A DNA stretch of 64,000 nt. Source: Prostheceraeus crozeri (lineage: Eukaryota > Platyhelminthes > Polycladida > Euryleptidae). A model generated the notes under the pieces. It was given only the letters and a program-made list of their open reading frames with translations. It made no database searches and was not told the DNA's origin. Of the stretch, positions 21,942 to 40,454 are shown piece after piece. The position numbers and the translations under genes are program-made. Where the stretch lies: positions 434,001-498,000 of the forward strand of contig CAJQUW010009225.1 of the NCBI GenBank assembly GCA_907163375.1, written 5' to 3'. Within the stretch, counting starts at the first letter, position 1. Every line of letters starts with the position of its first letter.

Positions 21942-21947
21942 ATGAAG

Positions 21948-22510: not shown

Positions 22511-22691
22511 ATGTGAGACGCCATTTAAGATTTTGGGACATTGGTGAAAAACGACAGAGTTAGAATTTGGGACGTTTTGGGCTGTAGCTTCAAAACGAAC
22601 TATCGGATTGGTAAACGGATGCCAGATTTGGAATCAACTTGATGTTATTGTCCAATGAGGATCATCATCCAATGAGAATCAAGCATTTCTT

Positions 22692-22698
22692 TATAAAT
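22692..22698 (+). promoter_or_regulatory. TATA box of the first Polinton gene
   Basis: TATAAAT lies 108 bp before the ATG at 22800. About 43 bp downstream is a leader sequence (GAATCACACGAGTGACG) that recurs at the same spacing downstream of the PolB TATA box. Confidence 0.6.
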
Positions 22699-22799
22699 AG
22701 CGAGCCTTCCACAGTGAGAATCATTCCATCGTTGAATCACACGAGTGACGGACGCACATTTTCTCTCTCTCTAGTTCCCTGTTCTATTATCCAACTAAA

Positions 22800-23573: not shown

Positions 23574-23607
23574 TCCTTTCCTAACTCTACCCTATGACAA
23601 TTCGCTT

Positions 23608-23733
23608 ATGTGCTTTGAGTGTCGTAGACGTGGTCTTATTAGATACATTTTACTTCTTCGTTGCCATCATATCATTTGTGTATTTTGTCGTGAAAAGCAT
23701 CGATGTAATTCTTCATTTTGTAATATGTTATAG
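23608..23733 (+). CDS. Small zinc-binding protein, RING-like half
   Basis: The frame reads MCFECRRRG, a hydrophobic stretch, then C-H-H-I-I-C-V-F-C and C-x4-F-C, the spacing of a RING or treble-clef zinc site. The upstream part of the same frame (from 23485) overlaps the end of the previous gene and may be used. A related but longer protein is encoded at 24817-25140. A possible splice acceptor (CCGTTTTAG at about 23766) follows, so this could be the first exon of the exonuclease gene. Function unknown; E3 ligase activity would be a guess. Confidence 0.4.
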   Translation: MCFECRRRGLIRYILLLRCHHIICVFCREKHRCNSSFCNML

Positions 23734-23785
23734 AACGTTTCCTTAGATGTGTAAATTTCCGTTTTAGGCTTCTATCATCATTTTT

Positions 23786-24316
23786 ATGGATTGTGAGGGT
23801 GAACCTGTACAGGAGCTCAGTGCTATTGCTATGAACAATTGGACATATCAGATTGTTAGTGTCTATCATCAACATGCCAACTGCGATCCCAATGTTGATC
23901 AATGGGCGAGAAAACACATTCATGAACTTAATCTGAAATATTTGCAAGACTATGGCTTTTCTTGTGAGAGTGCTCTTCTTATTGACTTTAAACGATGGTT
24001 AGCTGCTTTCAATGTTATACGCATCTTTTGTAATAATCCTGGTAAGGAGAGGAAAGTATTTCCCAATCTAATCATTGATGATATTTTGCTCCCACCTTGG
24101 GATAGTAGAGTGAATCAACATTATCATGAAGTCACAAAACGTTTTAAGGATTTGTGTGTTCCTATTTTGTCTGTTCGTTGTAGTAGCTACGTTCATAACC
24201 AATGCTTCTTTCCTCCTTACCTCAACACTGCCAAAGTCCTGTATGGTTATCATTGCTCGCTGTATGATAGTTACCAGCTGTATCTATTTTATCTCTTTCA
24301 AACCATTGATTTATAA
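23786..24316 (+). CDS. DEDDh-type 3'-5' exonuclease
   Basis: The first residues are MDCEGEPVQELSAI, which carries exonuclease motif I (D-x-E) followed by the usual E-L-x-x-I. Near the C terminus GYHCSLYDSYQLY has H-x4-D (H156, D161), the DEDDh motif III. A middle aspartate-rich block lies at about 97-99. Length is 176 residues, typical for a bare DnaQ/TREX-like domain. Because motif I starts at residue 2, translation probably begins upstream: an acceptor-like TTCCGTTTTAG precedes GCTTCTATCATC, the same form as the ATG-intron-GCA starts of PolB and the first gene. It likely acts on DNA or RNA ends; the substrate cannot be told. Confidence 0.6.
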   Translation: MDCEGEPVQELSAIAMNNWTYQIVSVYHQHANCDPNVDQWARKHIHELNLKYLQDYGFSCESALLIDFKRWLAAFNVIRIFCNNPGKERKVFPNLIIDDILLPPWDSRVNQHYHEVTKRFKDLCVPILSVRCSSYVHNQCFFPPYLNTAKVLYGYHCSLYDSYQLYLFYLFQTIDL

Positions 24317-24403
24317 TGCATGCTTGTTACCATTATTCAATAAATGTTACTATGAGAAGAGTTGTTGTTTTCATGCAATGGATGGGTTAGATAAAGGGCG
24401 ATC

Positions 24404-24814
24404 ATGTCTTTCTCAAACGACTGCGGAACATTACGTTTTCATAGGCAAAGTTTAAAAGGAGCTGTTCAAGATTATGTGATAAAATTTCATAAAGATGAGA
24501 CCGACATCGAAGCAGTGGTCGATGATGCTAGCACTCTATTTCTAGAGTTAATGAATACATTCTCTGATAGCATTATCATGGCGCGATTAGTTGCGAAAAT
24601 TAAGTTTAGTCATTTTGGAAAGGAAGAGGTGGAAAGTCGCTCTTTCCATTTTGCTTCTTATTCAATGGAAGTGGTAGATCACCCCCAAGAATTTTTTAAA
24701 AGACATATGATAAAAATTGCTGAACGTCTTAACGCATTTAACCATCATGGTAGCAGTCTAGTGATTGAAGCGATTTCAGATATTCACATTCAACTTTCCA
24801 TAAAGAAAAATTGA
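24404..24814 (+). CDS. Stand-alone homologue of a PolB N-terminal domain
   Basis: The protein has 136 residues. The second half (EFFKRHMIKIAERLNAF, then HGSSLVIEAISDIHIQLS) has the same pattern as a segment near residues 190-245 of this element's own PolB, where a helix is followed by a hydrophobic I-x-x-I-x-I-x-L strand. It is therefore probably a separate copy of the small domain that precedes the polymerase in Polintons. Its role is unknown; DNA binding or priming is possible. ATGCAATG 31 bp before the ATG is a one-mismatch version of the motif in front of the virion genes. Confidence 0.5.
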   Translation: MSFSNDCGTLRFHRQSLKGAVQDYVIKFHKDETDIEAVVDDASTLFLELMNTFSDSIIMARLVAKIKFSHFGKEEVESRSFHFASYSMEVVDHPQEFFKRHMIKIAERLNAFNHHGSSLVIEAISDIHIQLSIKKN

Positions 24815-24816
24815 AA

Positions 24817-25140
24817 ATGCAGTGGTACTTGATTGTAGCACAACTGGTTTTCGAGCTATGTCTGCTCACTCTCGAAGTATATTCCTTCTGTACATGCGTC
24901 TATTATTTAGAAAAGGCTAGCAAATTCATATCTTCAAAAAGACTTGCTATAGACATCAGTAACGGTGAAACTATGTGTTGCGATGTATGTAAGCGAAAGG
25001 ATGGAAATGAAAAGCGCATCTTCAAGAGATGTAAGCATGCTTTTTGTCAACGCTGTTTCATACGTAATTGCATTCAACTTTGCCAATGTAACCACTGTGA
25101 CATTGCTCATTTCGAGTGTCACTTATGTCGCAATAGTTAG
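24817..25140 (+). CDS. Membrane-anchored RING-like zinc protein
   Basis: The 107-residue protein starts at the ATG of TTGAAAATGCAG. Residues 3-33 are hydrophobic (LIVAQLVFELCLLTLEV), either a signal anchor or membrane helix. Residues 54-104 carry C-C-x2-C, C-x-H-x2-C-x2-C, C-x-C-x2-C and a final C-x2-C, a RING-type cross-brace order (C54/C55, C58, C72, H74, C77, C80, then C89/C91, C94, C101, C104). It may be a membrane E3 ligase that acts on a host protein, by analogy with viral RING proteins. A shorter relative lies at 23608-23733. Confidence 0.55.
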   Translation: MQWYLIVAQLVFELCLLTLEVYSFCTCVYYLEKASKFISSKRLAIDISNGETMCCDVCKRKDGNEKRIFKRCKHAFCQRCFIRNCIQLCQCNHCDIAHFECHLCRNS

Positions 25141-25146
25141 TACCTA

Positions 25147-25157
25147 TGCAAATGTGG
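25147..25157 (+). promoter_or_regulatory. ATGCAAA motif before the small basic gene
   Basis: ATGCAAATGTG (preceded by T) lies 45 bp before the ATG at 25192. It is one of six ATGCAAA-type motifs found 29-45 bp before Polinton genes. Confidence 0.55.
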
Positions 25158-25191
25158 TAAAGATAGGTTTTAGCAAAGACTAACACGGAAA

Positions 25192-25494
25192 ATGGCGAAA
25201 CGTAAAATGACGAAACGTAAAAGTCAAAAGTTTTCTTCAGCCATTCAAGCTCTCCGACGAATGAAAGCAAATCAGCGATACAATGCTATACGACATGCTA
25301 ACGATAAATTCATTTGTGAAATTATTTCTCATGTGAGGAAGTTGAGGACGAAGAAATTAGCGCCAAAACAACGAAAGTTACTTAAGCGATATGCTACGAA
25401 ATTGCGTTTCATCTCCAATCCTAAAGTCGCCCTTCAAAGAAAGAGGAAAACTCTAACACAAAAGGGCGGTTTCCTTCAGCAATACTTCCAATGA
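25192..25494 (+). pseudogene. Small basic Polinton protein with frame-broken tail
   Basis: The 100-residue frame is very basic (MAKRKMTKRK; KKLAPKQRKLLKRYATK) and ends with KRKTLTQKGGFL, a block that recurs at the C terminus of a small basic protein next to the ATPase in many animal Polintons and related viruses. The family usually continues with a hydrophobic glycine-rich tail. Here that tail is present in the -1 frame (25479-25547, starting ILPMIAP), so a single-base change near 25475-25480 has cut it off. The name of the family is not certain to me; a virion or core role is inferred from context. Confidence 0.6.
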
Positions 25495-25549
25495 TAGCTC
25501 CTGCCGTGGGCAACCTATTGGGAAATATCTTTGGCTCTAAGCGTTAATT

Positions 25550-25560
25550 ATGCAAATGTT
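25550..25560 (+). promoter_or_regulatory. ATGCAAA motif before the ATPase gene
   Basis: ATGCAAATGTT lies 29 bp before the ATPase start codon at 25579. Confidence 0.6.
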
Positions 25561-25578
25561 GAGTCTCAAAGTAATAAA

Positions 25579-26196
25579 ATGGATTTCAGACTTCAATGTG
25601 ATAAAGTTCTGACTGTATCAGGTCCATCTCATGCAGGTAAAACTGTTTTCACGCTGAATTTATTGGATAAAAGAAGGGAGTTGTTTAAGGAACCTATCAA
25701 TCGAGTGATTTGGTGTTATGGTATTTATCAACCGTCGCTGTTTCAGGAATTGCAAAGTCGCAACTTTATTCGACATGAAGGAATTATTCCAGTGGATAAA
25801 CTTCAGTCTAATGATGTTGTTGTATTGGATGATTTATTAAAAGAAAGTAAGAATTCAAAAGATGTTACAGATATGTTCACTCGCGCAGCACACCATAAAA
25901 GGTGTTTTATCATCTATATTACACAAAATTTGTTTCCTGATGGAAAAGAAGCTCGTACACGAAACCTGAATACACACTATTATGCTATTTTCAAGAATCC
26001 GCGAGATAAAAGTCAATTTGAAATTTTAGCGCGACAAGTTGCACCCAGAGGATCAAAAGCCTTAATTGAAATTTTTCAAGCAGCTACTGAAAAACCATAC
26101 GGTTACTTATTCATTGACTTTACGCAAGAGTGTCCGGAAGAATTTAGATTTCGAAGTGATATTTTGAAAACTCCCATGATTATCTACAAACTATGA
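25579..26196 (+). CDS. Packaging ATPase (FtsK/HerA, A32 type)
   Basis: The 205-residue protein is one of the Polinton core proteins and would pump DNA into the capsid. Walker A is GPSHAGKT at residues 15-22, Walker B VVVLDD at 80-85, and a sensor-type TQN lies at 115-117. The length is typical of the compact A32-like ATPases. I chose ATG 25579 because the open frame upstream has no ATG and because an ATGCAAA motif sits 29 bp before it. The stop overlaps the next start (ATGA at 26193). Frame intact. Confidence 0.9.
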   Translation: MDFRLQCDKVLTVSGPSHAGKTVFTLNLLDKRRELFKEPINRVIWCYGIYQPSLFQELQSRNFIRHEGIIPVDKLQSNDVVVLDDLLKESKNSKDVTDMFTRAAHHKRCFIIYITQNLFPDGKEARTRNLNTHYYAIFKNPRDKSQFEILARQVAPRGSKALIEIFQAATEKPYGYLFIDFTQECPEEFRFRSDILKTPMIIYKL

Positions 26197-26885
26197 GTTC
26201 TTATTCTCGCATGATTGTTATTCCTCAGGATGAATATGTACAATTGACTGCCATGCAGCAAGTAAAGCAACCTCTTGCAAATCAAATGTATAGGAAAGAA
26301 ATAGATTATCAGCAAAATGTTCACATCAAAGATCCACATCGTGCTGTATTATTACAATCGGAAACTGTTGAGCAATTGAAAAACTTGAAGAATAAGATGC
26401 GTGACTCTGTATCGACTGCTACACCTTTAGCATCTCGCGCACATGCCATATCTCTTTTCAACAGTATTGAACCCCATCTCAATGTAAATGATAGAGGAGA
26501 AATCATTACAGATGAAAATAAAGTGATTGATGCTTCACGTTATGAAGACTTGATTCAGTATGCGACACGTAGAAAGCGCCGTCAGGGCTATGTTCCACCT
26601 GGTTGGTCATACTTTCTTAAACTATTGAAAAAGCATAATGTGCCAAAATTTGCTTTAAATAATGAGACATTGAAAGAACTTGATTCAACAGTGGCTACTA
26701 CTCCAATGCTTCAGGCGATGAAAATGCCAACAAATTGGTTTAAGACGTCACCTGCTACATCCCCTCCCACACTCACTAAGCAAACAAGGGGAAGAACTCG
26801 ACGTAGATCTGTATCGCCACTAAAACTGGTAAAAGGAAAACGTAAAACAGCTCCTCCCAGGAAATACATGTTCTCAGACTATTAA
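26193..26885 (+). CDS. Polinton-conserved protein of unknown function, likely virion
   Basis: The 230-residue protein starts MSSYSRMIVIPQDEYVQL and has a helical, charged middle (RKEIDYQQN; SETVEQLKNLKNKMRD), a QGYVPPGWSYFLKLLKK block and a basic arginine-rich tail (RGRTRRRS; KGKRKTAPPRK). Proteins with this start and order are found next to the ATPase in other animal Polintons, as far as I recognise. It overlaps the ATPase stop by four bases (ATGA), so expression is coupled or from one transcript. The basic tail suggests contact with packaged DNA. Confidence 0.6.
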   Translation: MSSYSRMIVIPQDEYVQLTAMQQVKQPLANQMYRKEIDYQQNVHIKDPHRAVLLQSETVEQLKNLKNKMRDSVSTATPLASRAHAISLFNSIEPHLNVNDRGEIITDENKVIDASRYEDLIQYATRRKRRQGYVPPGWSYFLKLLKKHNVPKFALNNETLKELDSTVATTPMLQAMKMPTNWFKTSPATSPPTLTKQTRGRTRRRSVSPLKLVKGKRKTAPPRKYMFSDY

Positions 26886-26886
26886 T

Positions 26887-27102
26887 ATGAAGCAGATGTG
26901 TTGCTTGCCATGTAATGAGCCGCCAGAGGTGAATGTCGTTGTCACTTGCACTTGCTGCGCCAGCTCTCATAATGAAACCCCTAAGCAATGTGAACACGAT
27001 CGCAAAACCGCTAAAGCTAAATGCTGCAGTTGTTGTAAATGTAGAAAGGGAAGAAAACAAAAAGATGAGAAGGAGGAAAAAGAGTCAGCCGTCATCGACT
27101 GA
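26887..27102 (+). CDS. Cysteine-rich small protein
   Basis: The 71-residue frame starts one base after the preceding stop and overlaps the integrase start by 38 bp. It has C-C-x2-C, C-x-C-C and C-C-x-C-C-x-C clusters, 13 cysteines in all, and a highly charged K/E tail (RKGRKQKDEKEEKE). The close packing supports a real gene, but the overlap with the open integrase leader means one of the two could be a shadow. Zinc binding or a disulphide-rich small protein is possible. Confidence 0.45.
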   Translation: MKQMCCLPCNEPPEVNVVVTCTCCASSHNETPKQCEHDRKTAKAKCCSCCKCRKGRKQKDEKEEKESAVID

Positions 27103-28153
27103 ACGTTTGAAGTCAATCTATTATGATGTAAAACATCCGGCAGGATTTGCATCTATCAAGAAATTATCAAAAGCGAGTGGTCTTCCACAATCACAAGTGA
27201 AACGATGGTTAAAGGGTCAGGCTACCTATACACTCCACAAACAAGCGAAAAAGAAGTACCGCACCCGCCATTATATTGTTCATGACATCGATGAACAGTG
27301 GCAAGCAGATTTGTGCGATGTTGCCTCCATTTCAAAACATAACTCGGGCAATAATTTTATTTTAACCGTCATTGATATTTTCTCGCGTTATGCGTGGGCT
27401 CAACCTTTAAAAACTAAAGAAGGGAAAGGAGTAGCAAAAGCATTCCAAACAATTTTTCGAGAAGGTCGCATTCCAAAAAGAATTCAGAGTGATCAAGGAA
27501 AAGAGTTTGAAAATCAGCATGTGACAAGATTATTTGAGAGGCATGACATTGAGTTGTTTAGTGTAAAGAGCGCTTATAAAGCTGCACTCGTTGAACGTTT
27601 TAATCGCACATTAAAAAATCGTTTGTGGCGACATTTTACTGCCAACTTGACACAAAATTGGACAAAGGTTCTACAAGATACACTCCATGCCTACAATCAC
27701 TCTATCCATCGTTCTATTGGACTCAGACCAGTAGATGTAAATGCTGACAATGTAGATAAAGTGCGCGAATCATTCCAACGTAAACGCACTCATGTGAAAA
27801 GTGATGTGAAAATTGGCGATAAAGTTCGTATCTCAAAAGTGAAAAGTGTTTTTGCTAAAGGGTACCTCCCGAATTGGACAGAGGAGGTATTTACAGTATC
27901 AAGGATTAATCAAAAAGACTCTCCGACCACCTACAAGTTGAAAGATTACGATAATGAAGAAATTGAGGGTAGCTTTTACCGCGATGAGATTGAGGTAGTC
28001 ACTGAAAGTGAAACATATTTGGTAGAGAAAATCATTCGATGTAAAAAACGGCAAGGTGAAGAATGGTGTCTTGTTAAATGGACTGGTTATCCTTCAAGTA
28101 TGAACTCTTGGATGCGTCGTGCCGACATCTTTCATCTAAGTGATCGACAGTGA
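27065..28153 (+). CDS. int: Polinton integrase with C-terminal chromodomain
   Basis: The protein has 362 residues from the ATG at 27065; the longer frame from 26933 overlaps the cysteine-rich gene and its leader does not look like an integrase. The RNase H-fold core carries QADLCD (D82), QSDQGKEF (D143) and ALVERFNRTLK (E177), the D, D-35-E triad. A short helical N-terminal region precedes it. Residues about 313-356 form a chromodomain (YLVEKII, VKWTGYP, SWMRRADI; the usual W-E-P is replaced by W-M-R). It would join the element's ends to host DNA, making the 6-bp duplication; the chromodomain may direct target choice. Confidence 0.93.
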   Translation: MRRRKKSQPSSTERLKSIYYDVKHPAGFASIKKLSKASGLPQSQVKRWLKGQATYTLHKQAKKKYRTRHYIVHDIDEQWQADLCDVASISKHNSGNNFILTVIDIFSRYAWAQPLKTKEGKGVAKAFQTIFREGRIPKRIQSDQGKEFENQHVTRLFERHDIELFSVKSAYKAALVERFNRTLKNRLWRHFTANLTQNWTKVLQDTLHAYNHSIHRSIGLRPVDVNADNVDKVRESFQRKRTHVKSDVKIGDKVRISKVKSVFAKGYLPNWTEEVFTVSRINQKDSPTTYKLKDYDNEEIEGSFYRDEIEVVTESETYLVEKIIRCKKRQGEEWCLVKWTGYPSSMNSWMRRADIFHLSDRQ

Positions 28154-28156
28154 TTC

Positions 28157-28167
28157 ATGCAAAGTTG
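28157..28167 (+). promoter_or_regulatory. ATGCAAA motif before the pVI-like gene
   Basis: ATGCAAAGTTG lies 38 bp before the ATG at 28195, just after the integrase stop. Confidence 0.6.
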
Positions 28168-28194
28168 TAACTAACAATGTTTAGGGTTTGAGCT

Positions 28195-28650
28195 ATGAAT
28201 CCAACTGCCTCATTTTATTCACGACCCTCCTACGTAAGTGGTGGAGGACAAATTTACATCGGTGCTCGCCGCCAACGTGGAGGTAGCATACTTGGTGCAC
28301 TGAAATCTGTTGTAGCACCTCTCATATCCAATGTCGGTAGATCTTTAAAACGAAATGTTTTAAGTAATGCCGTTGGCTTTGCTGGTGATGTTGCTAGTGA
28401 TCTTTCCAGAGGTAGAAGTTTTAAGAGCAGTTTGTTGAATCGTGGGAAGGAACGCGGTTTAAAAACATTGAAGCAGACCATTGCTGGTGTTACTCAAGGA
28501 AAGAAATCACCTAAACGAATGAGAAAAGGAAGGAGGAAACATCGCGGAGCTGGTAAGGTGCAATCTTCAGTCAAAAGGCATTCACGCAAACGTCGCAGAG
28601 GCTCTAATCATTCATCAGGCGCTAAACGACGACGCTGCTATAACTTCTAA
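28195..28650 (+). CDS. Basic virion core protein, adenovirus pVI/pX-like
   Basis: The 151-residue protein has a glycine-rich start (VSGGGQIYIG; QRGGSILGALK), an amphipathic middle (SVVAPLISNVGRSLKRNVLS, then ADVASDLSRGRSFKSSLLNRGKE) and a long arginine/lysine tail (GRRKHRG, SRKRRRG, KRRRCYNF). This layout is that of the pVI/pX-like proteins of Polintons and adintoviruses: a protease-processed, membrane-active or DNA-condensing core protein. The GG sites are candidate protease sites, though they do not fit the adenain consensus perfectly. It is followed at once by the capsid gene. Confidence 0.65.
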   Translation: MNPTASFYSRPSYVSGGGQIYIGARRQRGGSILGALKSVVAPLISNVGRSLKRNVLSNAVGFAGDVASDLSRGRSFKSSLLNRGKERGLKTLKQTIAGVTQGKKSPKRMRKGRRKHRGAGKVQSSVKRHSRKRRRGSNHSSGAKRRRCYNF

Positions 28651-28652
28651 TC

Positions 28653-29930
28653 ATGGAGTGTAAAACTTCCGGTTTTTGTTTGTTCGATCAACAAGCCATA
28701 CAGACAGATATTCTTAGTTCAAGTATTGTAGATTATCATCCTCGAACAGCTGAGAATGCTGGCCCCATTGAATTTGTTATTCCTGGTGGTAGTGATGACT
28801 ACATAGATTTGAGTTATGCGATGCTTGATTTGAGGTTTAGAATTCAACAAGCAGATGGAACTGCTATTGACGATGCACATAAAGTTGGACTGAACAATTT
28901 ACCATTGACTACATTACTTCGCGATGTTTCTCTAACGATTGGAGAGCAGCAGGTGGAAGGTGGTCAAAGCGATTATCCCTATAAATCATATTTCAATCAT
29001 GTATCACAGTTTCATCCAGCAGCACAAAAAAGTCATATGGAAGCCATGGGATGGTACAGAGATGAAGCAGGAAAATTTGATGTTGAAACAAACAGTGGCT
29101 TTGTAAAGCGATCTGCTATGATTAAAGATAGTAGAGTATGTCAGCTATATGGTCCGCTGAATTTAGACTTCTTTAGACAGTCAAAGTTTTTACTCTGTAA
29201 TACCAGCATGCGACTCAAGCTGACATTGAATAAGCCTGAATTTGCGCTGAATGCATTTGCTAAAGTTGACAATTTTAGAATTCATGTGGAAGATATTGCA
29301 CTTTACATTCGTCGAGTAGTACCGAATCCAAGTGTCATTAGAGGGCATGCTGAAGGTCTTAACCGCCAAAATGCCATTTACCCCGTTCAGCATACAAAGC
29401 TTCTCACCTTTACAATTCCGAAAGATCAAAAGAGTTTCATGAAAGATGGCCTCTTTCCATCGGAAGCACCGAAGCTCCTCATGGTGGCAATGGTTGAAAA
29501 TGATGCATTTAATGGTAATATAAAGAAGAATCCTTTCAATTTTAAACACAATCAGTTAAGTGAAATTGCTTTACGTGTTAATGGTGTGAGTCATCCTGGT
29601 CCACCCTACAAACCAGATTTTGCTTCGGATCAATTTATGCGCAGTTATGTTGATTTTATGGATGTCTTTGGCTTTTACAATACGGATGATACCAACGGAC
29701 TGACTATGAAAGAGTTTAAGAGTGGATATACTATTTATGCATTTGATTTGACTGCTGACAGCGATATTAGTGCACCCTATCGTCAAGCGAACGTGCCTCA
29801 TAATATTCGTTTGGATTTGACGTTCAAAAGAACACTACCTGAGACGATCAATGTATTAATTTATGCAGTCTTCGATTCAAATATTGAAATTACAAAGTAT
29901 CGTGACGTGATTCTTCAGTATAATCGTTAA
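28653..29930 (+). CDS. Major capsid protein, double jelly-roll type
   Basis: The 425-residue protein matches the conserved Polinton/adintovirus hexon-like family (uncharacterised F54H12.2-type proteins). Recognisable blocks are PIEFVIPGGSDDYIDL near residue 38, YPYKSYFNHV near 109, the NAIYPV and KNPFNFKH stretches, and a C-terminal LPETINVLIYAVFD. The length and beta-rich composition agree with the family. The start follows the preceding stop by two bases, and the TAA stop shares its last A with the protease ATG (TAATG at 29930), a tight virion-gene block. Frame intact. Capsid function is inferred from the family. Confidence 0.82.
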   Translation: MECKTSGFCLFDQQAIQTDILSSSIVDYHPRTAENAGPIEFVIPGGSDDYIDLSYAMLDLRFRIQQADGTAIDDAHKVGLNNLPLTTLLRDVSLTIGEQQVEGGQSDYPYKSYFNHVSQFHPAAQKSHMEAMGWYRDEAGKFDVETNSGFVKRSAMIKDSRVCQLYGPLNLDFFRQSKFLLCNTSMRLKLTLNKPEFALNAFAKVDNFRIHVEDIALYIRRVVPNPSVIRGHAEGLNRQNAIYPVQHTKLLTFTIPKDQKSFMKDGLFPSEAPKLLMVAMVENDAFNGNIKKNPFNFKHNQLSEIALRVNGVSHPGPPYKPDFASDQFMRSYVDFMDVFGFYNTDDTNGLTMKEFKSGYTIYAFDLTADSDISAPYRQANVPHNIRLDLTFKRTLPETINVLIYAVFDSNIEITKYRDVILQYNR

Positions 29931-30391
29931 TGAGTTGGTTGACTGCTGACGATATTAAGACTAAAGTGCAGCATAATGCAGACGAAGCGACGTTGAAAGC
30001 TTTCGATAATGTCTATTCACTCGATACCTTACCACCTGCAGTAAATCACTATCCCATCTTTATTGTGCTAAACACTCATTCACAGAATTTAGGCGGTGAG
30101 CATTGGAAAGCGATCTTTATTGGAAAAGACCGACGTGGTGAACTATTTGACTCTCTTGCTCAACCTCCAAATATACCAACACAGCAGTGGTTGAGAAAAC
30201 ATACGCGTCAATATCAGCGAAATGAACGCATACTACAACATCCACTTTCATCAACGTGTGGTGCTTTTGTACTGTACTTCATCTTAAAACGTTTACATGT
30301 ATCTCGATTTGCATCTATTATTCAAAACTTTTCATGTAATCCATCCTCTAATGAAAAAATGATTTGTAAGTTCTATCATGATTTGAAATAA
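29930..30391 (+). CDS. Adenain-like cysteine protease (maturation protease)
   Basis: The 153-residue protein has the C5-type catalytic order: GEHW (H58), ELFDS (D74), a glutamine at about 103 and SSTCGAF (C110), where C-G follows a serine as in the family. The length is typical of Polinton and adenovirus proteases, which cut capsid and core precursors. It starts on the last base of the capsid stop codon. Its own TAA stop lies within AATAAA (30387-30392), so the coding end and the poly(A) signal coincide. Confidence 0.9.
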   Translation: MSWLTADDIKTKVQHNADEATLKAFDNVYSLDTLPPAVNHYPIFIVLNTHSQNLGGEHWKAIFIGKDRRGELFDSLAQPPNIPTQQWLRKHTRQYQRNERILQHPLSSTCGAFVLYFILKRLHVSRFASIIQNFSCNPSSNEKMICKFYHDLK

Positions 30392-30417
30392 AAACATCAT
30401 GTTGGAAAAATTGTTTT

Positions 30418-30963
30418 TTATTTTACAATCCGCTGGGTACGTACATACTCAATGAGATAGTCTAGGATCATATTTGCTTGTTCATGAGATTTTAGTCCAG
30501 TAATGATCACTTTACTATTATGAAAGATTGCCACATGCACAGGCAACCAACAACTAATGAGAGCTGCAGGAAAAAGTTCGGGTTCATAACACAAACTGTA
30601 ACTGCTGGTACGAATCTTCAAAAATGATAGACTGTCACTCAATTGAGTAGAGATCACCATATTGTCCACAGTCAGATTCGACATCACACACCTCTCCCTC
30701 TTCCATATCCGACGTAGTAGTCTTTGTAGCTCTAAGCGCATTGACTGCGCCGATGAATGAGAAAGGGCGCCGAGAATCTGTACAGTCCCATTTGGGAAGA
30801 GTTGAAGATTCCGTGAATTGTTCATCTTCACTACTAACATTTGAGGACGGCCCGGGTAATACTTGCTGTTTGGAAGCTGTTGGCGTAATGTTGTGAGATC
30901 GATTTTGGTGTAGAGTCTGAAGCGACGGAGAATGTTGACGATGGTGTAGCGATGGCGCTTCAT
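30418..30963 (-). CDS. TATA-binding-protein-like protein (TBP core)
   Basis: From the ATG at 30963 the protein has 181 residues, the size of the bare TBP saddle. It shows both TBP repeats: residues 6-88 (YTIVNIL, IDLTTLRQQL, YYPGRP, LQLFPNGTVQILGALS) and 96-176 (LTVDNMV, CYEPELFPAALI, VAIFHNSKVIITGLKS). YEPELFP is the family signature. Three of the four DNA-intercalating phenylalanines are kept (F56, F131, F147); the first is a proline (P40). It would bind promoter DNA in the nucleus. The open frame upstream of 30963 reads through the neighbouring gene and is not needed. The stop TAA lies inside AATAAA. TBP is not a standard Polinton core gene as far as I know. Confidence 0.85.
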   Translation of the reverse strand: MKRHRYTIVNILRRFRLYTKIDLTTLRQQLPNSKYYPGRPQMLVVKMNNSRNLQLFPNGTVQILGALSHSSAQSMRLELQRLLRRIWKRERCVMSNLTVDNMVISTQLSDSLSFLKIRTSSYSLCYEPELFPAALISCWLPVHVAIFHNSKVIITGLKSHEQANMILDYLIEYVRTQRIVK

Positions 30964-31285
30964 GATGAAAGAATGAGTAAATTGAGCGATGTACCTTCCT
31001 TTTATACTTTTCCCAACTACCTTGATGAAATGTGAAGTTAGTATGAAGTTGGGAATGATAGAGTTGAATTCGCCGATTGTTGACGCGCAGCCAGATGCGA
31101 TTTCCAATACGTGAATGTCTTTTCATATAGAAGTATTTCAAGTCCTTCATGATATGATGTAGAGATTGAAAATGACGATAAGATAAAACAAACTCTCTTC
31201 TCACATTTCCAGTTGAATCTTTGAAATAGACGTTTCGATCATGATCCGTTTCAATACGTTGTAGGGAATCTAATTTCCAACTCAT
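30635..31285 (-). CDS. PC4-like protein, copy 2, with overlapping tail
   Basis: The 216-residue frame starts at ATG 31285, 35 bp after an ATGCAAAT motif on this strand. Residues 1-108 are clearly related to the protein at 31308-31664 (DSLQRIETDHDRNVYFK; FQSLHHIMKDLKYF; GSWEKYKRKVHRSI). The strand-strand-helix pattern with V-x-F-K, L-S-x-R-x-F-x-x-L and I-x-x-D-L resembles the PC4/Sub1 coactivator domain; this is pattern recognition, not proven. The paralogue ends where the TBP-like gene starts here, yet this frame continues another 105 codons over the TBP gene, serine- and acid-rich (SSEDEQFTESS; DMEEGEV). Whether the tail is used is open. Confidence 0.55.
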   Translation of the reverse strand: MSWKLDSLQRIETDHDRNVYFKDSTGNVRREFVLSYRHFQSLHHIMKDLKYFYMKRHSRIGNRIWLRVNNRRIQLYHSQLHTNFTFHQGSWEKYKRKVHRSIYSFFHHEAPSLHHRQHSPSLQTLHQNRSHNITPTASKQQVLPGPSSNVSSEDEQFTESSTLPKWDCTDSRRPFSFIGAVNALRATKTTTSDMEEGEVCDVESDCGQYGDLYSIE

Positions 31286-31307
31286 GGTGCGTGGTAATCA
31301 TATCTGA

Positions 31308-31664
31308 TTAAGATTTGCATAGTAGGGCGATGAACTCACGACGAATAAATGTCATGATGGAGCGATGTATGTATCTTCTATACTTCTCCCAATTGTATTT
31401 GCGAAATGAGAAACAGTTTGCGGAATGAGAATGGTAGATTTGAATTTCATTTCTGTAATGTTGAAGCCAAACTTGATCACCCAAGGAGATGAATCTTAAT
31501 GTTTCAAAATATTCCAAATCCCTCATGATATCATTGAGGTTGACAAATTGTCGCCATGTTAATGTAATTCCTCTTGATGTATGACCATGAGAATTTTTGA
31601 AATGTACGTTTCCATCACGATCAACTCTGATATATTGTAGAGAGTCCAAAATCCAAGTCTTCAT
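31308..31664 (-). CDS. PC4-like protein, copy 1
   Basis: The 118-residue protein starts at ATG 31664. It appears to contain two strand-strand-helix units: residues 8-54 (YIRVDRDGNVHFKN, RGITLTWRQFVNL, DIMRDLEYF) and 63-108 (QVWLQHYRNEIQIYH, FSFRKYNWEKYRRYIHRSI). The first resembles the PC4/Sub1 transcription coactivator domain, in which a G-I-S-L strand leads into a helix beginning with Q-W. Basic overall. It is divergent from the plus-strand gene at 31700 across only 35 bp. With copy 2 and the TBP-like gene it forms a minus-strand cluster, which favours a transcription role. Confidence 0.5.
   Translation of the reverse strand: MKTWILDSLQYIRVDRDGNVHFKNSHGHTSRGITLTWRQFVNLNDIMRDLEYFETLRFISLGDQVWLQHYRNEIQIYHSHSANCFSFRKYNWEKYRRYIHRSIMTFIRREFIALLCKS
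31314..31320 (-). promoter_or_regulatory. ATGCAAA motif before PC4-like copy 2
   Basis: Read on the minus strand, ATGCAAATC lies 35 bp before the ATG at 31285, the same spacing as for plus-strand genes. Confidence 0.55.
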
Positions 31665-31699
31665 GATGTTATGCAAAGTTGCAGATTAGCAATATAAAA
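31665..31699. promoter_or_regulatory. 35-bp divergent promoter with ATGCAAA motif
   Basis: This is the whole space between the start codons of the minus-strand PC4-like copy 1 and the plus-strand virion gene. ATGCAAAGTTG at 31671-31681 is 29 bp before the plus-strand ATG at 31700. Confidence 0.6.
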
Positions 31700-33097
31700 A
31701 TGTCGTTTTATCATATTTTGCTTAGCAATGCGGCTACAAAGAGATTTACTAGCAATCGAGCCGCACTCTTTTCTACTCCCATTGATCATGCACAACAGCT
31801 AAATGGGAATTGGGAAGTGGGTGTCACTCAACTTGTTTATAGCAACTGTGTCTATACTTTTGATCATGAGGTGATGACTATTAATATGAGGCGTACAGCT
31901 GCTTATCAATGTGAAAAGGGGTGCCGAATATACATTCCACAGTGGCCAAAGAAAGATCTCTTATCATGTAAAAAGTTTATATATGATTTCTTGAATAAAG
32001 CGTGTAAACATATTGTCCAATTTACTCCGCACAATGATGATTATAATTATGTACATCATGTAGTTGAGAAAGATTGGATTGTTGGTTTAAGTCCAAGTTT
32101 AAGAAATGATTTAGGCTACCTCGCTAGCGCCTTAACAAGCTATGATAATTTTAACGTTAATTACCACATAAGTGGTCATAAACAGTTAATATATCGAGAG
32201 GAAGCTTATTATGTAGATCTTATTCCAAGAAATGAGAAGACGTTGGTGAAGAAGATTGTGATTAAGCCAAGAAAGACAAACATGACTCCTGAAACATTAT
32301 TGAAGAAATTTAATTATCTCCTTCGAGTTGATGACAAACAAGTGGCAACATTGACTTATATTAAATCATCTAATCATATTGCAATAAGTAAATTAAATGA
32401 TGATGATCTAGTATTAGTTTGTTCAAAAGATTTTCATCAGTTCTTACGACATCGTTCTGCAGCTGTTCATGGAAAATCTGATATGCAACATTTACCATGT
32501 GAAAGGTCAAATCAATTTGATACAGAATGGGCCGTATCTTTATACAGAAAGTGTGTAGAGCCTTTTGGTGGTTTCTTACATGAAACAAGAGTGTTGATGC
32601 CTCGCATTATTACTTCGGTTAAATTGGTTGTAGATTATTTAAATGAAGTGATTAATGAGCAACATATTTCATTTTCTGAAAAAGAAGGTACTTTGTCTCT
32701 CACTATAAATGGAAAAGGTATTGAACTAATTATGGATAAAACTCTAATGGACATTTTGGGTTTTGATCAAAATATCTTTAAAAGTGGTACTGTAACCAAA
32801 GCTAGCGCAGACATGTCGCTATCGCGTCGTATTAACTATTTTCAGATATATTCCAATATTGGTGAAGATGTACGTGTGGGAGATGTTGAAGCTCCATTGC
32901 TAGCAATGATACCATACCAGCCAAAAAGCTGCAGTATTTTATCTGAGCATACTTTCAAGAAAGTGCATTATACAAAGCTGAAATCAAACTACATCCCACA
33001 AATTGATATTGCCATTTATGATGATGCTGGTGCGTTGATTCCTTTTCATAAAGATGCTGTGACAAGTATTACACTCCATTTCCGAATGAAGAGTTAA
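31700..33097 (+). CDS. Polinton virion-type protein, copy 1
   Basis: The 465-residue protein starts MSFYHILLSNAATKRFTSN, then LNGNWEVGVTQLVY. The order S-N-x5-F-x-x-N followed by G-x-WEVGV is a recurring start in animal Polinton proteins. I recognise it as a conserved virion-type family, possibly a penton or minor capsid/fibre protein, but the exact role is not certain. It is related to the next gene (33137-34657) in the first 60 residues and in the middle (DTEWAVSLYRKCVEPFGGF compared with DEWWVDIYGDRI). The ATG was chosen because the upstream codons lack another ATG and the promoter motif sits 29 bp before it. Confidence 0.6.
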   Translation: MSFYHILLSNAATKRFTSNRAALFSTPIDHAQQLNGNWEVGVTQLVYSNCVYTFDHEVMTINMRRTAAYQCEKGCRIYIPQWPKKDLLSCKKFIYDFLNKACKHIVQFTPHNDDYNYVHHVVEKDWIVGLSPSLRNDLGYLASALTSYDNFNVNYHISGHKQLIYREEAYYVDLIPRNEKTLVKKIVIKPRKTNMTPETLLKKFNYLLRVDDKQVATLTYIKSSNHIAISKLNDDDLVLVCSKDFHQFLRHRSAAVHGKSDMQHLPCERSNQFDTEWAVSLYRKCVEPFGGFLHETRVLMPRIITSVKLVVDYLNEVINEQHISFSEKEGTLSLTINGKGIELIMDKTLMDILGFDQNIFKSGTVTKASADMSLSRRINYFQIYSNIGEDVRVGDVEAPLLAMIPYQPKSCSILSEHTFKKVHYTKLKSNYIPQIDIAIYDDAGALIPFHKDAVTSITLHFRMKS

Positions 33098-33106
33098 TGC
33101 AAAAGT
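33097..33106 (+). promoter_or_regulatory. ATGCAAA motif before virion-type copy 2
   Basis: ATGCAAAAGT lies 40 bp before the likely ATG at 33137 and directly touches the earlier in-frame ATG at 33107, which argues for the later start. Confidence 0.5.
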
Positions 33107-33136
33107 ATGCTAATATATTTTTCCAATGTGAATAAT

Positions 33137-34657
33137 ATGGAAAGTGAAAATAAGGACTCGTTTCTAATCTACTTGCCCAGTAATGCTTCTATGAATAAAT
33201 TTCCCAAAAATAAACCATCAGACTATCGAGTAGAATTAAATCGGCCACTGCATTTAGAAGGTGAATGGGAAGTTGGCGTTTCTAGTATTTGCTATGATAG
33301 CAATATTCAGAATGTGAATGATTTGGAAGAAATGATATTGACTCCTCGCACCCATGATGGAATAACGATGAATAATGCATTTCAGTTCCCATACAATTTA
33401 ACATCAGATGGAAAGTGGAACTATGAATGGATTCAGATAAAATCAGATTCTTATGAGCCATTTGGGAATGAGAAAATTATTAAGGCATTCAACAGTGGTA
33501 ATACTTCCATCATGAAGAATAAAAATCAGAAAGCTTATGAGTTTACTATCTATCATTGGAGTGGGAGACAGTTCCTCCGCTTTCATTCTTTTACTAAAGG
33601 TCTTACGCTGAGGTTGGATAGTGAATTCTATCCACATCTTGGTTTTGGTCATGGACTACATCTAACGTCAATTGCTACTGCAAATGTTAAAAAAGTTTAT
33701 TCAACTCGAATCAACAAATTTCATTATAGATTTAAAATATTTGATGAAGATGTTGTAGAATGCGAAGAACGCATCATTTTGAAAAAGCGTGGTGTTCAAC
33801 CTTTATCACTTATTGAGTTAGTAAAACGATGGAATGAGACTGTGGGTAAGAAGTATGGAGAGAAAATTATGGCGGACAAAAATAAGTTGGTTATTCAGAA
33901 ATATAATGACAAACTTACAGTTTATTTCTCTCCAACCTTGCGTCATTTTGTAAGACATTATACGCCTATTATTGGAAGCGGTGTGGTGTATGGTTCTCAT
34001 GAATATCACACTAAAGCTGATTCAGTTAATGATGAATGGTGGGTGGACATCTATGGCGATCGCATCAAGAAAATTTACCAGTCTTATGAAGAATCTAAAG
34101 TTGCTATCAATATAATGCCGCGTCTATATCATACAGTTGAAAGCTTCATTCATGTAGTAAATCCTTATATACAACAGAAGTTGAAGCATGTGATGAAAAG
34201 TAAATATGATGTAAAGACACACCACATTTCGTTTTCAATTGAAAAACAACGCGTTGTTCTGAAACTGGGTGATGACATTCAATGTCAATTGAGTAAAAAT
34301 TTGAAAAAACTCTTTGGCTTTTCAATGCTACAAACTGTGTTTGCTGCTGCGCATACGATTGGTATAGAAACACCAATGACACTTGATAAACATGAACAAC
34401 ACCTTTACATTCAAAGTGATTTGATTTTACCTATTTCTGTTGGCGAGAAAAAAGAATACATTTTACGTGATTTCATTCATGATAAAGACGCTTCATATGG
34501 AATAGTCGAGAAGATGTTTGAATCTATTTTCTATCATCCCGTCGTCAAACAAACTATACCCTCTATTGCTATCAAAATTACCAATGGTTTACAAGAGTGT
34601 ATCCATGTGAAAGATACTAAATCCCTCGTAACTTTAGTGTTTCGGAAAACAAAGTGA
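33137..34657 (+). CDS. Polinton virion-type protein, copy 2
   Basis: The 506-residue protein begins MESENKDSFLIYLPSNASM, then FPKNKPSDYRVELNRPL and GEWEVGVSSICYD, a closer match to the conserved Polinton pattern (L-P-S-N-x-S, F-P-x-N, G-x-W-E-V-G) than its upstream paralogue. Both were probably made by a tandem duplication and then diverged. The family is found with capsid genes, so a minor capsid, penton or spike-base role is likely. A longer start at 33107 is possible but overlaps the promoter motif. It converges on PolB; AATAAA follows at 34681. Confidence 0.62.
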   Translation: MESENKDSFLIYLPSNASMNKFPKNKPSDYRVELNRPLHLEGEWEVGVSSICYDSNIQNVNDLEEMILTPRTHDGITMNNAFQFPYNLTSDGKWNYEWIQIKSDSYEPFGNEKIIKAFNSGNTSIMKNKNQKAYEFTIYHWSGRQFLRFHSFTKGLTLRLDSEFYPHLGFGHGLHLTSIATANVKKVYSTRINKFHYRFKIFDEDVVECEERIILKKRGVQPLSLIELVKRWNETVGKKYGEKIMADKNKLVIQKYNDKLTVYFSPTLRHFVRHYTPIIGSGVVYGSHEYHTKADSVNDEWWVDIYGDRIKKIYQSYEESKVAINIMPRLYHTVESFIHVVNPYIQQKLKHVMKSKYDVKTHHISFSIEKQRVVLKLGDDIQCQLSKNLKKLFGFSMLQTVFAAAHTIGIETPMTLDKHEQHLYIQSDLILPISVGEKKEYILRDFIHDKDASYGIVEKMFESIFYHPVVKQTIPSIAIKITNGLQECIHVKDTKSLVTLVFRKTK

Positions 34658-34836
34658 AGTCATTGTGATATGTTTATTGAAATAAAAATATGTATATGAA
34701 AAAGTCTTTTCACAGATATAGGGGGAATGGGCTGACTGTAGGTATATATTCACAAGGAAGAAACGATCTCATACGATACATAAAACAACCATGTATATCT
34801 ACAAAAAGCAACATCAAAATACTGAGTTAAAGTTGA

Positions 34837-37800
34837 TTATGTCAATACATCTCCTGAATGTGGTAGCGTGAGTTTTATTCTTTTGGGTGGAGGTATGTTT
34901 GTGTCAGGATGTCCATGTGGAAGAGATGTGTTATGTCCTATCCAACACCTCTTATCCTCCCATGCTGAAAGTGCTCGTTTCTTGAACGTGTACGTTTTCA
35001 CAGTATGAACTTGAGATTTTAAGATTGTCATATTGACAAACGTTATAGTTTTATTTTTATAGGCCTTCTTATAGGACCGATGTTTCATTTTATGAACAAT
35101 GGATTTTGATATACCTTTAGCACGCTTAATACTATCTGCACATTCTTTTAGTTTCATGGAATACATTTTAGGACGGAGGAGAATCATTTCATCTATTTCC
35201 TTTCCTGCTGTTTCATCCTTAAAACAACCAAGTTTGGCTTTATTCTGTATGGAATAGAGTGGATGAGTGGGATTGTAGTTAGATGTATCGAAATATTTTT
35301 CTAATGACTTACCTACTTCATTAAAATTTAAATCTTTTTGAGTGGTAATTCCTAAAAAGAAACTATCTGTATCACCACCCAGCAAGCGAACCTCTTTTAC
35401 GAGAGGGCATGGTTTTAATATTTTGTAGAAGAGTTGATACATTTCAAGCTTGGAATAATCTAAAACGGCTTGCCCAATATAGATGGGTTTGCACAACTCA
35501 ACTTCTGATTTAATCATTTTAACACCTACAAGATCCTCATCGATGATGTCTCTATCAATGAAAAGAGGTGATGAGGTCAATTTGTGATATTTTTGTTCAT
35601 CAACGACTAGTTTGTAATTCATACGTTTTCTAACATCCTCCATGGTCTTTCCGAATAGACTATTATTCTTATATTTATAAAAATCCTTTTCAAAATTATT
35701 TTGGGCGAGTGCACGTTTTTGACTGTTACTATCTATGTAGGGTTTGAGGAAGGCTTTCTGTCTAAATTTGATAATGCGGTGAACTGACTTTAGAAGCATG
35801 CCCATTTCTAAATAGAATTTTAATATGCAGAAGTGTACGAGATAATTTTTCTTATCATATTGGGTGAGTAAAAGTTTGCGGCATGGTTTGTACCTTGGCT
35901 GTCCACACTCTGTTAAGTTATTATGAAATTGTGACATGAATGGTGAAAACATATCTTCAGTCACTTCGCCAGATTCAGGTGCGAGTGGGAAATCAGCAGT
36001 TTTATTTTTAATACTATTTGGATAAATCAAATCCACTTCAAAATAATATCCCCAATCACCTTCATCTGGAATATTCAGTATGTTTGAAGGGTTGGAGTAA
36101 TACTCAAGCTCATTTTGATTTAACCAACTAAACTCGGAATGAGGTAGTGGTTTAGACAGTGAACTGCCATATAAATTATTTTGGTCATAGTACTTTAGGT
36201 GGATATGATCATCACCTACTGTTTCAGATTTTATATGATGTTTATTTACAAATGTGAGACCACCGCGTATTCCGCGCTCAAATATATTATACATCTCCGG
36301 GTCTTGTAAGAGATGAATGGTCTCACCAGTCATTTTAAAGGCTGATTTAAAGGACATGGCTGGTAGACTGACAAAGTGGATAGGATCTAATTTGTCTTCT
36401 TCTAATGCCACTCGTCGAAACTCCTGAAAGACATCAGCCAGCAAAATGACATCTAATTCTAAGTAAGCGATCATATAATCGCCAAACGTTTTACAATTAA
36501 ATTTTAACCATGCCTCTTGAGCATGTTCATAGTCCTCTACTGGACAATCTTCACCCGTCAAATCGTTTTTGAATTTGTCAATGGAAGGAAGGGTTGTTTC
36601 ATTTAGTTTAGACATTGAGCTAAAATACGCATAAGGAAAGACTCCTTTGCGAGTGATTATTTCATCCGTTAAGTTTGGATAGTGTTTCTTCAAAGTTTGA
36701 CTATGGGGAAGAAACTTGAGATTACGAACGAGAGAAGCTAGTGACGCTGACATGAATTGAAATGAATCTAAAAATTTTATTTCGAAGAAGACTGTCTTAT
36801 TTTCTTTAGTTTTATCTACTGGTACTTTTGCTGTCATTGCCATGAATTTTTCTCTCGTTTGTGCTATTACATTAAACTGCCACGATTTCATCTGGCTCAA
36901 CCCTCCTTTTATGAGCATATGACTGTCATAGCCCTTAAAGTTATGAAAAATGACGGGTAGTACACGACGTCTCAACCTAAGTGAAAAGTTACATTTGGAG
37001 CAGAGTGCGTTTCTAAATTTACCAGTGATGTGATCATGATCACGCACTTTCTTAATTTTATCGTCATCAAACGTTTTATGACATTTAGGACAGGATGTGC
37101 AACTTTCAAATTTTTGTTTGTCTTCATCTGACATATGTAGTGACTTACGCTGCAATTGGGAATCATATGATTGTTGAAATTTTGCAGCTTTATCGAGAAA
37201 TTCTAGAAATTTTGAAATGCAATCTTCACCTTGCCAAGTATGCATTTTGTTTTGTCTATTCCTAAAGTGGTCATGCCATACTTCATAGCAGGATATGGCT
37301 GCTGGCTTGTGGATGATATCATCAATGTAGCATTCTATGTCTGCGTAAATGACACGCAGGGGACTTAATTCGTCACCATTATCCCTATGTGAAAATATTT
37401 TATCTTTGGGCATGCGTTCCATTTGTAATTTACCTCGCTTGCACCATTCATAGTGAGTTTCAAATTTATCTTTACTCCAAAATGAGCGGATGCAGCGGTC
37501 GCATACAAAATGTTCACCTCTTTTAGAGTGCCCCAAGTGAGTGTACAAGCGAGAGATTTTGGGAATACCACAGTAGTGCCATTCCTCGCTATCATCTTGT
37601 TTTACTAATAAGAGGTTGACTACACGTTCATAACAAGTTGAACGTGAATTATAGCGGGCACCCTTCAACCCCTTCTCCCACACGTGAACGACAATTTTAA
37701 TCTTATTATGTTTTTCGAACGTTTCTACATCTTTGATTTTCATGTTGTTACTATCACAACCTTCAAAGTCTAGTTCATCCTCCCACTGTCTATAGCTATA

Positions 37801-38809
37801 GGTGCGATCTCGATGCGCGTTGATATCATTATAGTGAAGGATGGATAGGACTGCATATTTGAAACACTGTGATTTACAATCAACATTGATGACAGCTTTC
37901 TTATTATACAACGTTTTTGGAAGTTTAAATGTGCCTCGAGCTGCATGACTTTCTAATAGGGAAATTTTGAATATGGCTGAGTCCACACCATCAAAAATGA
38001 GAGCGCTGTCGCGTTGATTGAATTTATCTACATTTGATTTTAAACATTGAATGTGAAAATTTAGCCAAGACTCGCAGTCTACAACTTCGGTTGCGGAAGA
38101 GGAAGGAATATGAAACTGTATTCTCTCCGTCACTTGACCCGTTTGAAAATCTATTTTAATATATTTTAGTTTAAGGTAGATGAGCGCCTTCATTCTAAAA
38201 TTGTCTAAATTATTGAAGAGCGCTTCGATAATGTTAGAATTTTGAAGGAGCCACTCAGGAAAATCTACAATTTGAGTATTGGACTCCATGCAGTAGTCGC
38301 GTACTAAATTATTATGTGAAACATTAATGAGGGAGATGGTAGAGGTACCGTTGGTGTAGTGATCATTTGCATGCGTGTGTTGAAGTCTGTGCGAAGATCG
38401 CTGAAAGTGACTATCAAAAGAAAGAGGGCACAAATCGCAAGGAAAGGAGATGTCATCGTCAGAATCAACTTCACCTCCGGAGATTGACACCGCTTTGCGT
38501 TGACACACACGTTGTTTGATGTGTCGAAGGAGACTGTGCTTCCTTGTAAACATATGTCCGCAGTCGGCACATTCCCACTCGTTGCCTTGCCGCGAGAGTC
38601 CTGAGCTGGAACTCACATCACCTGAAAGAGAAATCATTCTTTCATCTCTGTTCAAGCCTCAGTGTAGTGTTACAACCTACCTTGACTCAATAACTCTAAA
38701 CTTTCCTCGAGAAGAGAGGGCGTTGGTGATGAAGTTGTTGCCTGAAATTGAGGAAGATGCTATTAGTCACACGTTTGAGGGAGATGAGAGGAAATTTTCA
38801 ACTTACCAT
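34837..38809 (-). CDS. polB: Protein-primed DNA polymerase B, spliced
   Basis: Exons on the minus strand are 38809-38807 (ATG only), 38741-38681 and 38621-34837, giving 1282 residues in frame. C2H2-like fingers lie at about 38-61, 82-105 and 393-415, and an endonuclease VII-like zinc/HNH block (CPKCHKTF, DHDHITGKFRNALCSKC) at 532-565. Exonuclease motifs are YADIECY (about 449), HNFKGYD (about 582) and YLELD (about 745). Polymerase motifs are YYDQNNLYG (A, about 833), KNNSLFGK (B, about 1006) and GDTDS (C, about 1105). It copies the element from a protein primer in the nucleus. Unspliced, the frame has an in-frame ATG at 38637, an alternative start. Confidence 0.93.
38622..38680 (-). other. 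Intron 2 of PolB
   Basis: The 59-bp intron has donor CAAG|GTAGGT and acceptor TTTCTCTTTCAG|GTGATG. It joins a split glycine codon and keeps the frame into the zinc-finger region. Confidence 0.7.
38742..38806 (-). other. Intron 1 of PolB, directly after the ATG
   Basis: The 65-bp intron has donor ATG|GTAAGT and acceptor CTCAATTTCAG|GCAACA, the same position as in the first left-arm gene. Confidence 0.7.
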
Positions 38810-38945
38810 TTCAACGAAATCAAGTTTAAGGTTGATACTTCTACAAGATAGAGACTTCACTCAAATAATAGTCAAAGAGAGAGATCGTGCGTTCGTCACT
38901 TGTATGATTCACAGATTAAATGAAATGACCTGAATGTCACTTTGC

Positions 38946-38952
38946 TTATATA
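38946..38952 (-). promoter_or_regulatory. TATA box of PolB
   Basis: TATATAA on the minus strand is about 140 bp before the ATG. A leader sequence GAATCATACAAGTGACG follows about 40 bp downstream and matches the leader of the first gene (GAATCACACGAGTGACG) at the same spacing. Confidence 0.65.
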
Positions 38953-40444: not shown

Positions 40445-40454
40445 AACAAGATGA

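Follow-up and report, generated by a model that had tools for sequence, protein, structure and literature searches.

In canonical complexes of the TATA-binding protein (TBP) with DNA, the second of the two TBP repeats sits on the 5' half of the TATA box. TRF2/TBPL1 has lost most of the intercalating phenylalanines and carries a histidine for the phenylalanine of the EPELF signature. Virus-encoded TBPs are also already known: giant viruses, asfarviruses and mirusviruses, whose genomes are far larger than the element described here, encode proteins of the same TBP fold (BFVD matches). In mirusviruses, the TBP is present in 59% of genomes and RNA polymerase genes are also carried (PMC10132985). 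Another set of viral TBPs, typified by BcRF1 of EBV and ORF24 of KSHV, binds the TATT boxes of late genes (PMC4893493, PMC12529657). KSHV ORF24 requires its four phenylalanines and a proline beside the third, and that its DNA face is more polar (PMC12529657). Here we describe a diverged TBP encoded in a Polinton of a flatworm, in which one repeat is kept and the other is rebuilt.

The locus lies in a 64,000-nucleotide stretch of the Prostheceraeus crozeri genome (contig CAJQUW010009225.1, positions 434,001 to 498,000), hereafter the window, and its features are collected in Table 1. A sequence-only reading had reported a TBP-like gene with both TBP repeats inside a Polinton, and this is upheld in each part. 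The element has imperfect inverted terminal repeats of several hundred bases and a 6-bp target duplication on both sides, and the gene falls between its ends, on the strand and in the frame claimed, with 181 codons plus a stop. The protein matches the Pfam profile PF00352 in two stretches (E 7.6e-21; 74.2 bits against a cut-off of 22.9), it matches TBPs of the PDB by sequence (best E 2.8e-14), and its predicted fold is a two-repeat saddle over the full length, with about 20% identity to solved TBPs; structure prediction from the protein alone gave an uninformative model (pLDDT 37.8). All 60 database homologs reported at E 1e-3 or better, from 99 candidates, carry PF00352, with alignment identities of 31-78%. 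Neither result that the earlier reading had named as its refutation, an insignificant profile match or a fold other than the saddle, was thus obtained. The observation of a TBP-like gene inside a Polinton is confirmed as more than chance.

Among the other genes of the element, the integrase is of the retroviral type (PF00665, E 1.3e-10). We take the next product to be a pX-like basic protein, the one after it to be the major capsid protein (MCP) by gene order and size, and the long minus-strand frame to be the protein-primed type B DNA polymerase (PolB), by what we presume to be its motifs NNLYG, NNSLFGKT and GGDTDS. Family profile searches gave no credible match for the pX-like protein, the putative capsid protein had no match in Pfam, NCBIfam or PDB, and no polymerase profile matched the putative PolB, which has an endonuclease VII domain (PF02945, E 7.5e-07) and an N-terminal C2H2 finger below the cut-off. 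For ORFa and ORFb, Pfam and PDB searches gave no credible family match, and a PC4-like identity, which these searches do not support, was dropped. The C-terminal tail of ORFb overlaps the TBP gene in a different frame. An RNA polymerase family match was found for none of the 21 window ORFs scanned, in which the Polinton differs from the mirusviruses, and Polintons therefore probably use the host Pol II. An Rfam search of the window had no match. A tandem array of units of about 295 bp occupies 43530-45520, inside or beside the right terminal repeat; just beyond the right end lies a Tc1/mariner-type transposase (DDE_3) at 46469-47356, and a minus-strand ORF at 48286-51072, perhaps Penelope-like, has weak GIY-YIG and reverse-transcriptase matches below the cut-off.

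Table 1. Features of the Polinton and of its candidate promoter sites (window positions)
Feature	Positions	Strand	Size	Basis or remark
Polinton/Maverick element	21948..45996		24,049 bp	Termini AGTAGT...ACTACT; inverted terminal repeats and exact ends
Target-site duplication, left copy (ATGAAG)	21942..21947
Target-site duplication, right copy (ATGAAG)	45997..46002
Packaging-type ATPase	25579..26196	+		Weak Pox_A32 match, E 0.026, below cut-off
Integrase (INT)	26933..28153	+		rve core and chromodomain
pX-like basic protein	28195..28650	+		Presumed
Putative MCP	28653..29930	+	425 aa	Presumed from position and size
Ulp1/adenain-like cysteine protease (PRO)	29930..30391	+		PF02902, E 0.00066, 20.0 bits against cut-off of 20.7
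TBP-like gene	30418..30963	-	181 aa	Two TBP repeats; profile, PDB match, predicted fold
ORFb	30635..31285	-	216 aa	N-terminal domain paralogous to ORFa
ORFa	31308..31664	-	118 aa	Paralog of ORFb
g465	31700..33097	+		Paralog of g516, E 6e-17
g516	33107..34657	+		Paralog of g465, E 6e-17
Putative PolB	34837..38637	-		Presumed protein-primed type B; endonuclease VII domain
TATAAAAG box of TBP gene	30999..31006	-		First T 43 nt before ATG; overlaps ORFb codons
Initiator-like TCATT	30972..30976	-		30 nt downstream of first T of TATA; A 11 nt before ATG
TATGCAAA	25145..25152	+		47 nt before g100
TATGCAAA	25549..25556	+		30 nt before ATPase gene; also TAAGC at -41
CATGCAAA (near-match)	28156..28163	+		39 nt before pX-like gene
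TATGCAAA	31670..31677	+		30 nt before g465
AATGCAAA (near-match)	33096..33103	+		41 nt before likely g516 start at 33137, picked by eye to match F3 start; 11 nt before first ATG
TATGCAAA	31314..31321	-		36 nt before ORFb
TAAGCAAA	31717..31724	-		60 nt before ORFa

Residue patterns were compared in 61 aligned sequences, some columns having a residue in fewer of them, with the DNA-contact positions placed by what we take to be the Arabidopsis TBP numbering. Most of repeat 2 is kept, with N117, V119 and F165 in all 61 and F148 and T173 in 60; its L163 is replaced by alanine, threonine or serine in every sequence. Repeat 1 retains N27 (49/49 with a residue) and F74 (61/61), and four of its contacts are altered: F57 is proline in 57 of the 58 sequences with a residue, L72 is glutamine in 57 of 61, V80 is glutamine in all 61, and T82 is leucine in 55 and threonine in none. 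The corresponding residues of the window TBP are P40, Q54, Q62 and L64. Thus P40, the proline pointed out in the earlier reading, which stands at the place of the first intercalating phenylalanine, is characteristic of the family and belongs to a set of four linked changes. The other residues named in that reading are likewise present, namely the YEPELFP signature at 126-132 and F56, F131 and F147, these phenylalanines being kept in 61, 60 and 61 of the 61 sequences. The TFIIB-facing E-x-E-L stirrup is also retained (E127 in 60/61, E129 invariant). Accordingly, of the features of a canonical TBP, namely four intercalating phenylalanines and a hydrophobic minor-groove set in both repeats, repeat 2 largely has its share and the protein as a whole lacks the full set. 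Judged from these residues, a kept repeat 2 on the 5' half would fit a box that is still T-A at its 5' end, and the two minor-groove glutamines could accept G-C pairs that TBP normally avoids.

These features set the protein apart from each of the known TBP systems. With the cellular TBP of the host it shares the two-repeat saddle, the repeat-2 DNA contacts and the TFIIB-facing stirrup, but it is 20% and 39% identical to two host exon pieces, differs in the four repeat-1 contacts, is encoded in a single exon and is not sister to host TBP in our tree. TRF2/TBPL1 is also a TBP paralog with altered DNA-contact residues; however, W, H and Y occupy three intercalating places of the host TRF2-type exon, at which the Polinton TBP has the phenylalanines noted above, contrary to the TRF2 pattern. 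The herpesvirus mimics are likewise virus-type TBPs beside non-canonical assembly-gene boxes and have polar DNA-face substitutions (PMC12529657, PMC4893493). The proline beside the third phenylalanine of KSHV ORF24 corresponds to the invariant P132 of the Polinton TBP. ORF24 has all four phenylalanines and lacks the TFIIB-facing acidic residues, whereas the Polinton TBP has lost one phenylalanine and kept the acidic residues. The boxes differ as well, the herpesvirus one being TATTWAA and those of the assembly-type Polinton genes TAWGC(AAA), which do not fit TATTWAA.

A PF00352 search of the host genome, in which 150 of 10,982 candidates were scored with a selection favouring intact TBPs, found the canonical TBP (exons, C9306), an exon that we take to be of the TRF2 type (C3829), which points to an animal host, and many element-type TBPs. 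The window TBP is encoded identically at no fewer than 150 places (150 of 150 scored, from 11,886 first-look candidates, in a list that favours exact copies), eight of which show 0.2-0.7% divergence from the window across 3.5 kb; a 251-bp piece of the element had 911 first-look candidates, with all 40 scored identical. The window family, F1, is recent and very abundant in this 2.05-Gb genome. The gene was also found in other Polintons of the same genome. Ten-kilobase pieces were examined around 14 element-type TBPs, three from F1 (L047, L049, L053), three from F3 (L041, L042, L043), one from F4 (L048) and seven from F2 (L044, L045, L046, L050, L051, L052, L054). The order around TBP in F3 is that of the window, ATPase-g230-INT-pX-MCP-PRO-TBP-g465-g516-PolB, with L042 being 42% identical to the window in TBP, 54% in MCP, 64% in integrase and 66% in ATPase; L041 has a similar TBP with a more distant ATPase (32%) and integrase (33-48%). 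The damaged F4 copy shares this neighbourhood, but with g465 and g516 as an inverted pair, and its piece had no g230 match.

The order in F2 is ORFb-TBP-PolB. Matches to MCP, ATPase, pX, g465 and g516 were absent from all seven F2 pieces of about 10 kb, one of which had an integrase and a weak protease match. One F2 element was followed through to both of its ends, which begin with AGTAGT, carry repeats of about 600 bp and are flanked by a 6-bp TATATA duplication. None of MCP, ATPase, protease, integrase, pX, g465 and g516 was matched in it, and many repeat-unit matches lie close to its right end. This capsid-less Polinton family of 19.5 kb (L046, L055, L056; C2114:38881-58342) retains ORFb, TBP and PolB, with g136-like matches in several places. 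As the integrase is unmatched in six of the seven regions, the capsid-less family may be mobilised in trans by full elements.

In a FastTree phylogeny of 66 sequences, rooted on an archaeal protein and leaving out F4 and five of the 61 aligned sequences (<160 residues), 58 element-type TBPs group together (support 0.58), separate from host TBP, TRF2, plant, fungal, microsporidian and two viral TBPs. Searches of the viral collection IMG/VR with P0001, A1 and the capsid protein, and of GTDB genomes with A1, returned none of the Polinton TBP family, and the PolB pattern had no match in IMG/VR; when four cellular TBPs served as the query, two viral TBPs came up. With 55-57% identity to cellular TBP, these proteins of two IMG/VR contigs (L009, L010) are unlike the Polinton family.

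Substitution ratios were computed on copies drawn from the TBP-profile search, which favours intact copies. Among F1 copies the omega of TBP is 0.40 (16 copies, five with an in-frame stop) and 0.41 in a second count (13 copies), and for F2 it is 0.44 (9 copies). In the same family the ORFb domain has a value of 0.26, ORFa 0.69 and the protease 0.17; g465, over its first 900 bases and in 4 copies, has 0.58. The ORFb tail overlapping the TBP gene has an omega of 0.80; therefore, the TBP frame looks coding there and the tail non-coding. Sequence comparison thus supports the view that the TBP gene is conserved and under purifying selection in other Polinton families also.

Upstream of the TBP gene, a TATAAA followed 30-31 nt on by TCATT is present at 25 of 25 F1, 14 of 16 F2 and 6 of 6 F3 loci, and TATAAA is absent within 70 nt at both F4 loci; as some copies are represented by two loci, the distinct ones number about 24, 13, 3 and 1, respectively. 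Of the 12 database homologs with an upstream read-through of sufficient length, 9 (all but P0023, P0048 and P0059) show Ile-Lys with His ten codons on, which is how a TATAAA and CAY pair would read. The box, TATAAAAG, falls within ORFb codons (W..YKR) that are found again in F2 and F3 (compared by eye in F1, F2 and F3), so that coding constraint alone could maintain it. An earlier suggestion that the element is less dependent on host TBP runs counter to these observations: since three of the four families have a canonical TATAAA at the TBP gene itself, the first step of the element seems to rely on host TBP.

ATGCAAA had been suggested, as an alternative to TATA-type sequences, as a possible promoter of the element's own. 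It is the commonest 7-mer within 60 nt of ORF starts in the window element, preceding 6 of 24 ORFs of at least 100 aa, and as a gene-start motif it stands; an enrichment over the whole element does not, with nine occurrences in its 24,049 bases (both strands) against 17 in the 39,952 outside. TAWGC(AAA) describes the motif better, since TAAGC is the prevailing form at the corresponding genes of F3 and F4 (ATPase, pX, g465 and g516 in F3; ATPase, pX and g465 in F4). The F4 site of g516 is TATGCAAT and that of the ATPase is TAAGCGGC, without AAA. In 16 aligned sites, which take in ORFa at -60 and the near-matches CATGC (F1 pX), AATGC (F1 g516) and GAAGC (F3 INT), A occupies the three positions following GC in 12, 14 and 10 cases, and these positions are less constant than the core. 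TAWGC occurs at -28 to -48 of 4/18 starts in F1, 4/10 in F3 and 4/6 in F4, the F4 starts of the damaged g516 and pX genes being placed by homology, against a background of 0.028-0.032. The binomial P values (1.4e-3, 1.8e-4 and 9e-6) are descriptive, as the pattern was defined after inspection. None occurs in this interval for g230, MCP, PRO or integrase in F1 and F3; PRO has one TAWGC near -70, and g230, INT and MCP of F3 have a partial AWGCAA. For g230, MCP and the protease one would need to suppose transcription from a promoter further upstream. In the F2 element, the core motif or part of it is found at 3 of 13 ORF starts.

The reading that we favour, at about an even chance, is that this Polinton uses its diverged, saddle-shaped TBP as its own core-promoter factor in a two-step switch. 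Host TFIID/TBP would start the element TBP gene through the TATAAAAG box and the TCATT initiator; the element TBP would then bring TFIIB and host Pol II to TAWGC(AAA) promoters, chiefly those of the ATPase, pX, g465 and g516. Repeat 2 would provide a normal DNA grip and the TFIIB-facing stirrup, and repeat 1, with P, Q, Q and L for F, L, V and T, the altered contacts. By likeness only, the protein would work as the TBPs of beta/gamma-herpesviruses do on TATT boxes, and it may activate its own promoter set. The earlier proposal that the element brings its own promoter factor holds as far as a conserved TBP is encoded, and this protein would bind the motif. The wider picture is more tentative, and we place it somewhat below an even chance: a two-tier promoter code, with host TBP on TATA for the regulator and element TBP on GC-centred TAWGC(AAA) for the assembly genes, would parallel the herpesvirus late system by convergence, would work through host Pol II and would be retained in families with capsid proteins that are different at almost half of their positions. 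Against the mechanism, the F4 TBP gene lacks a TATA box, and two F1 boxes (ATPase and g465) are merely 30 nt from the ATG, where a normal TATA-to-start distance would put the RNA start at the ATG itself; the motif could instead be a start-site element. The A of TCATT lies only 11 nt from the TBP ATG, so very short leaders are apparently tolerated, which softens this objection and does not remove it.

That capsid-less F2 keeps TBP, with ORFb and PolB and no assembly genes, fits poorly with a role limited to assembly genes. It favours instead an alternative, which we consider unlikely, in which TBP serves an early or replication programme, or promoters generally, and TAWGC(AAA) is a separate signal, either a start-site element or a host-factor site. 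TAAG is a start-site element in baculoviruses; most F3 and F4 sites contain it, and a start-site element followed by a short leader could likewise lie 30-48 nt ahead of the ATG. However, inspection by eye upstream of the early-type genes showed no other shared box, three families already have a TATA and an initiator of the host type at the element TBP gene, and a host octamer (POU) reading, ATGCAAAT, fits three of seven F1 sites and none of the nine in F3 and F4 and was set aside. The retention of TBP in F2 would also suit a protein aimed at the host, competing with host TBP for TFIIB or promoters and dampening host transcription or the antiviral response, as would the combination of a retained stirrup with an altered first-repeat DNA grip. 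We regard this as quite unlikely, since a pure decoy would have no use for the near-invariant repeat-2 residues N, V, F, F and T (60-61 of 61) or for the new, invariant glutamine on the DNA face.

TBP bends DNA, and the Polinton protein might be an architectural bender for replication ends or integration-site choice; in F2, which keeps TBP and PolB, one element retains its AGTAGT ends and 6-bp duplication, but the integrase missing from six of seven TBP-bearing F2 regions makes an in-cis tie to integration weak, and this role seems very unlikely to us. Least of all do we credit a recently captured, functionless copy of a host gene: TBP is a host gene family, but the 58 element-type sequences group apart from host TBP, TRF2 and the two viral TBPs, omega is about 0.4 and the same neighbourhood recurs across diverged families, so that a mere passenger is disfavoured and highly improbable.

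In the literature searched, which covered few subscription papers, we found no description of a TBP in a Polinton, nor of a conserved Polinton TBP family with one rebuilt repeat, and we do not claim its absence from print; the passages searched likewise made no mention of the timing of Polinton genes. Polintons are regarded as related to many DNA viruses of eukaryotes. The conserved, half-rebuilt TBP described here offers a natural experiment on the ways in which the specificity of a TBP can shift, and the protein and the TAWGC box together open the timing of Polinton gene expression to direct tests in vitro.
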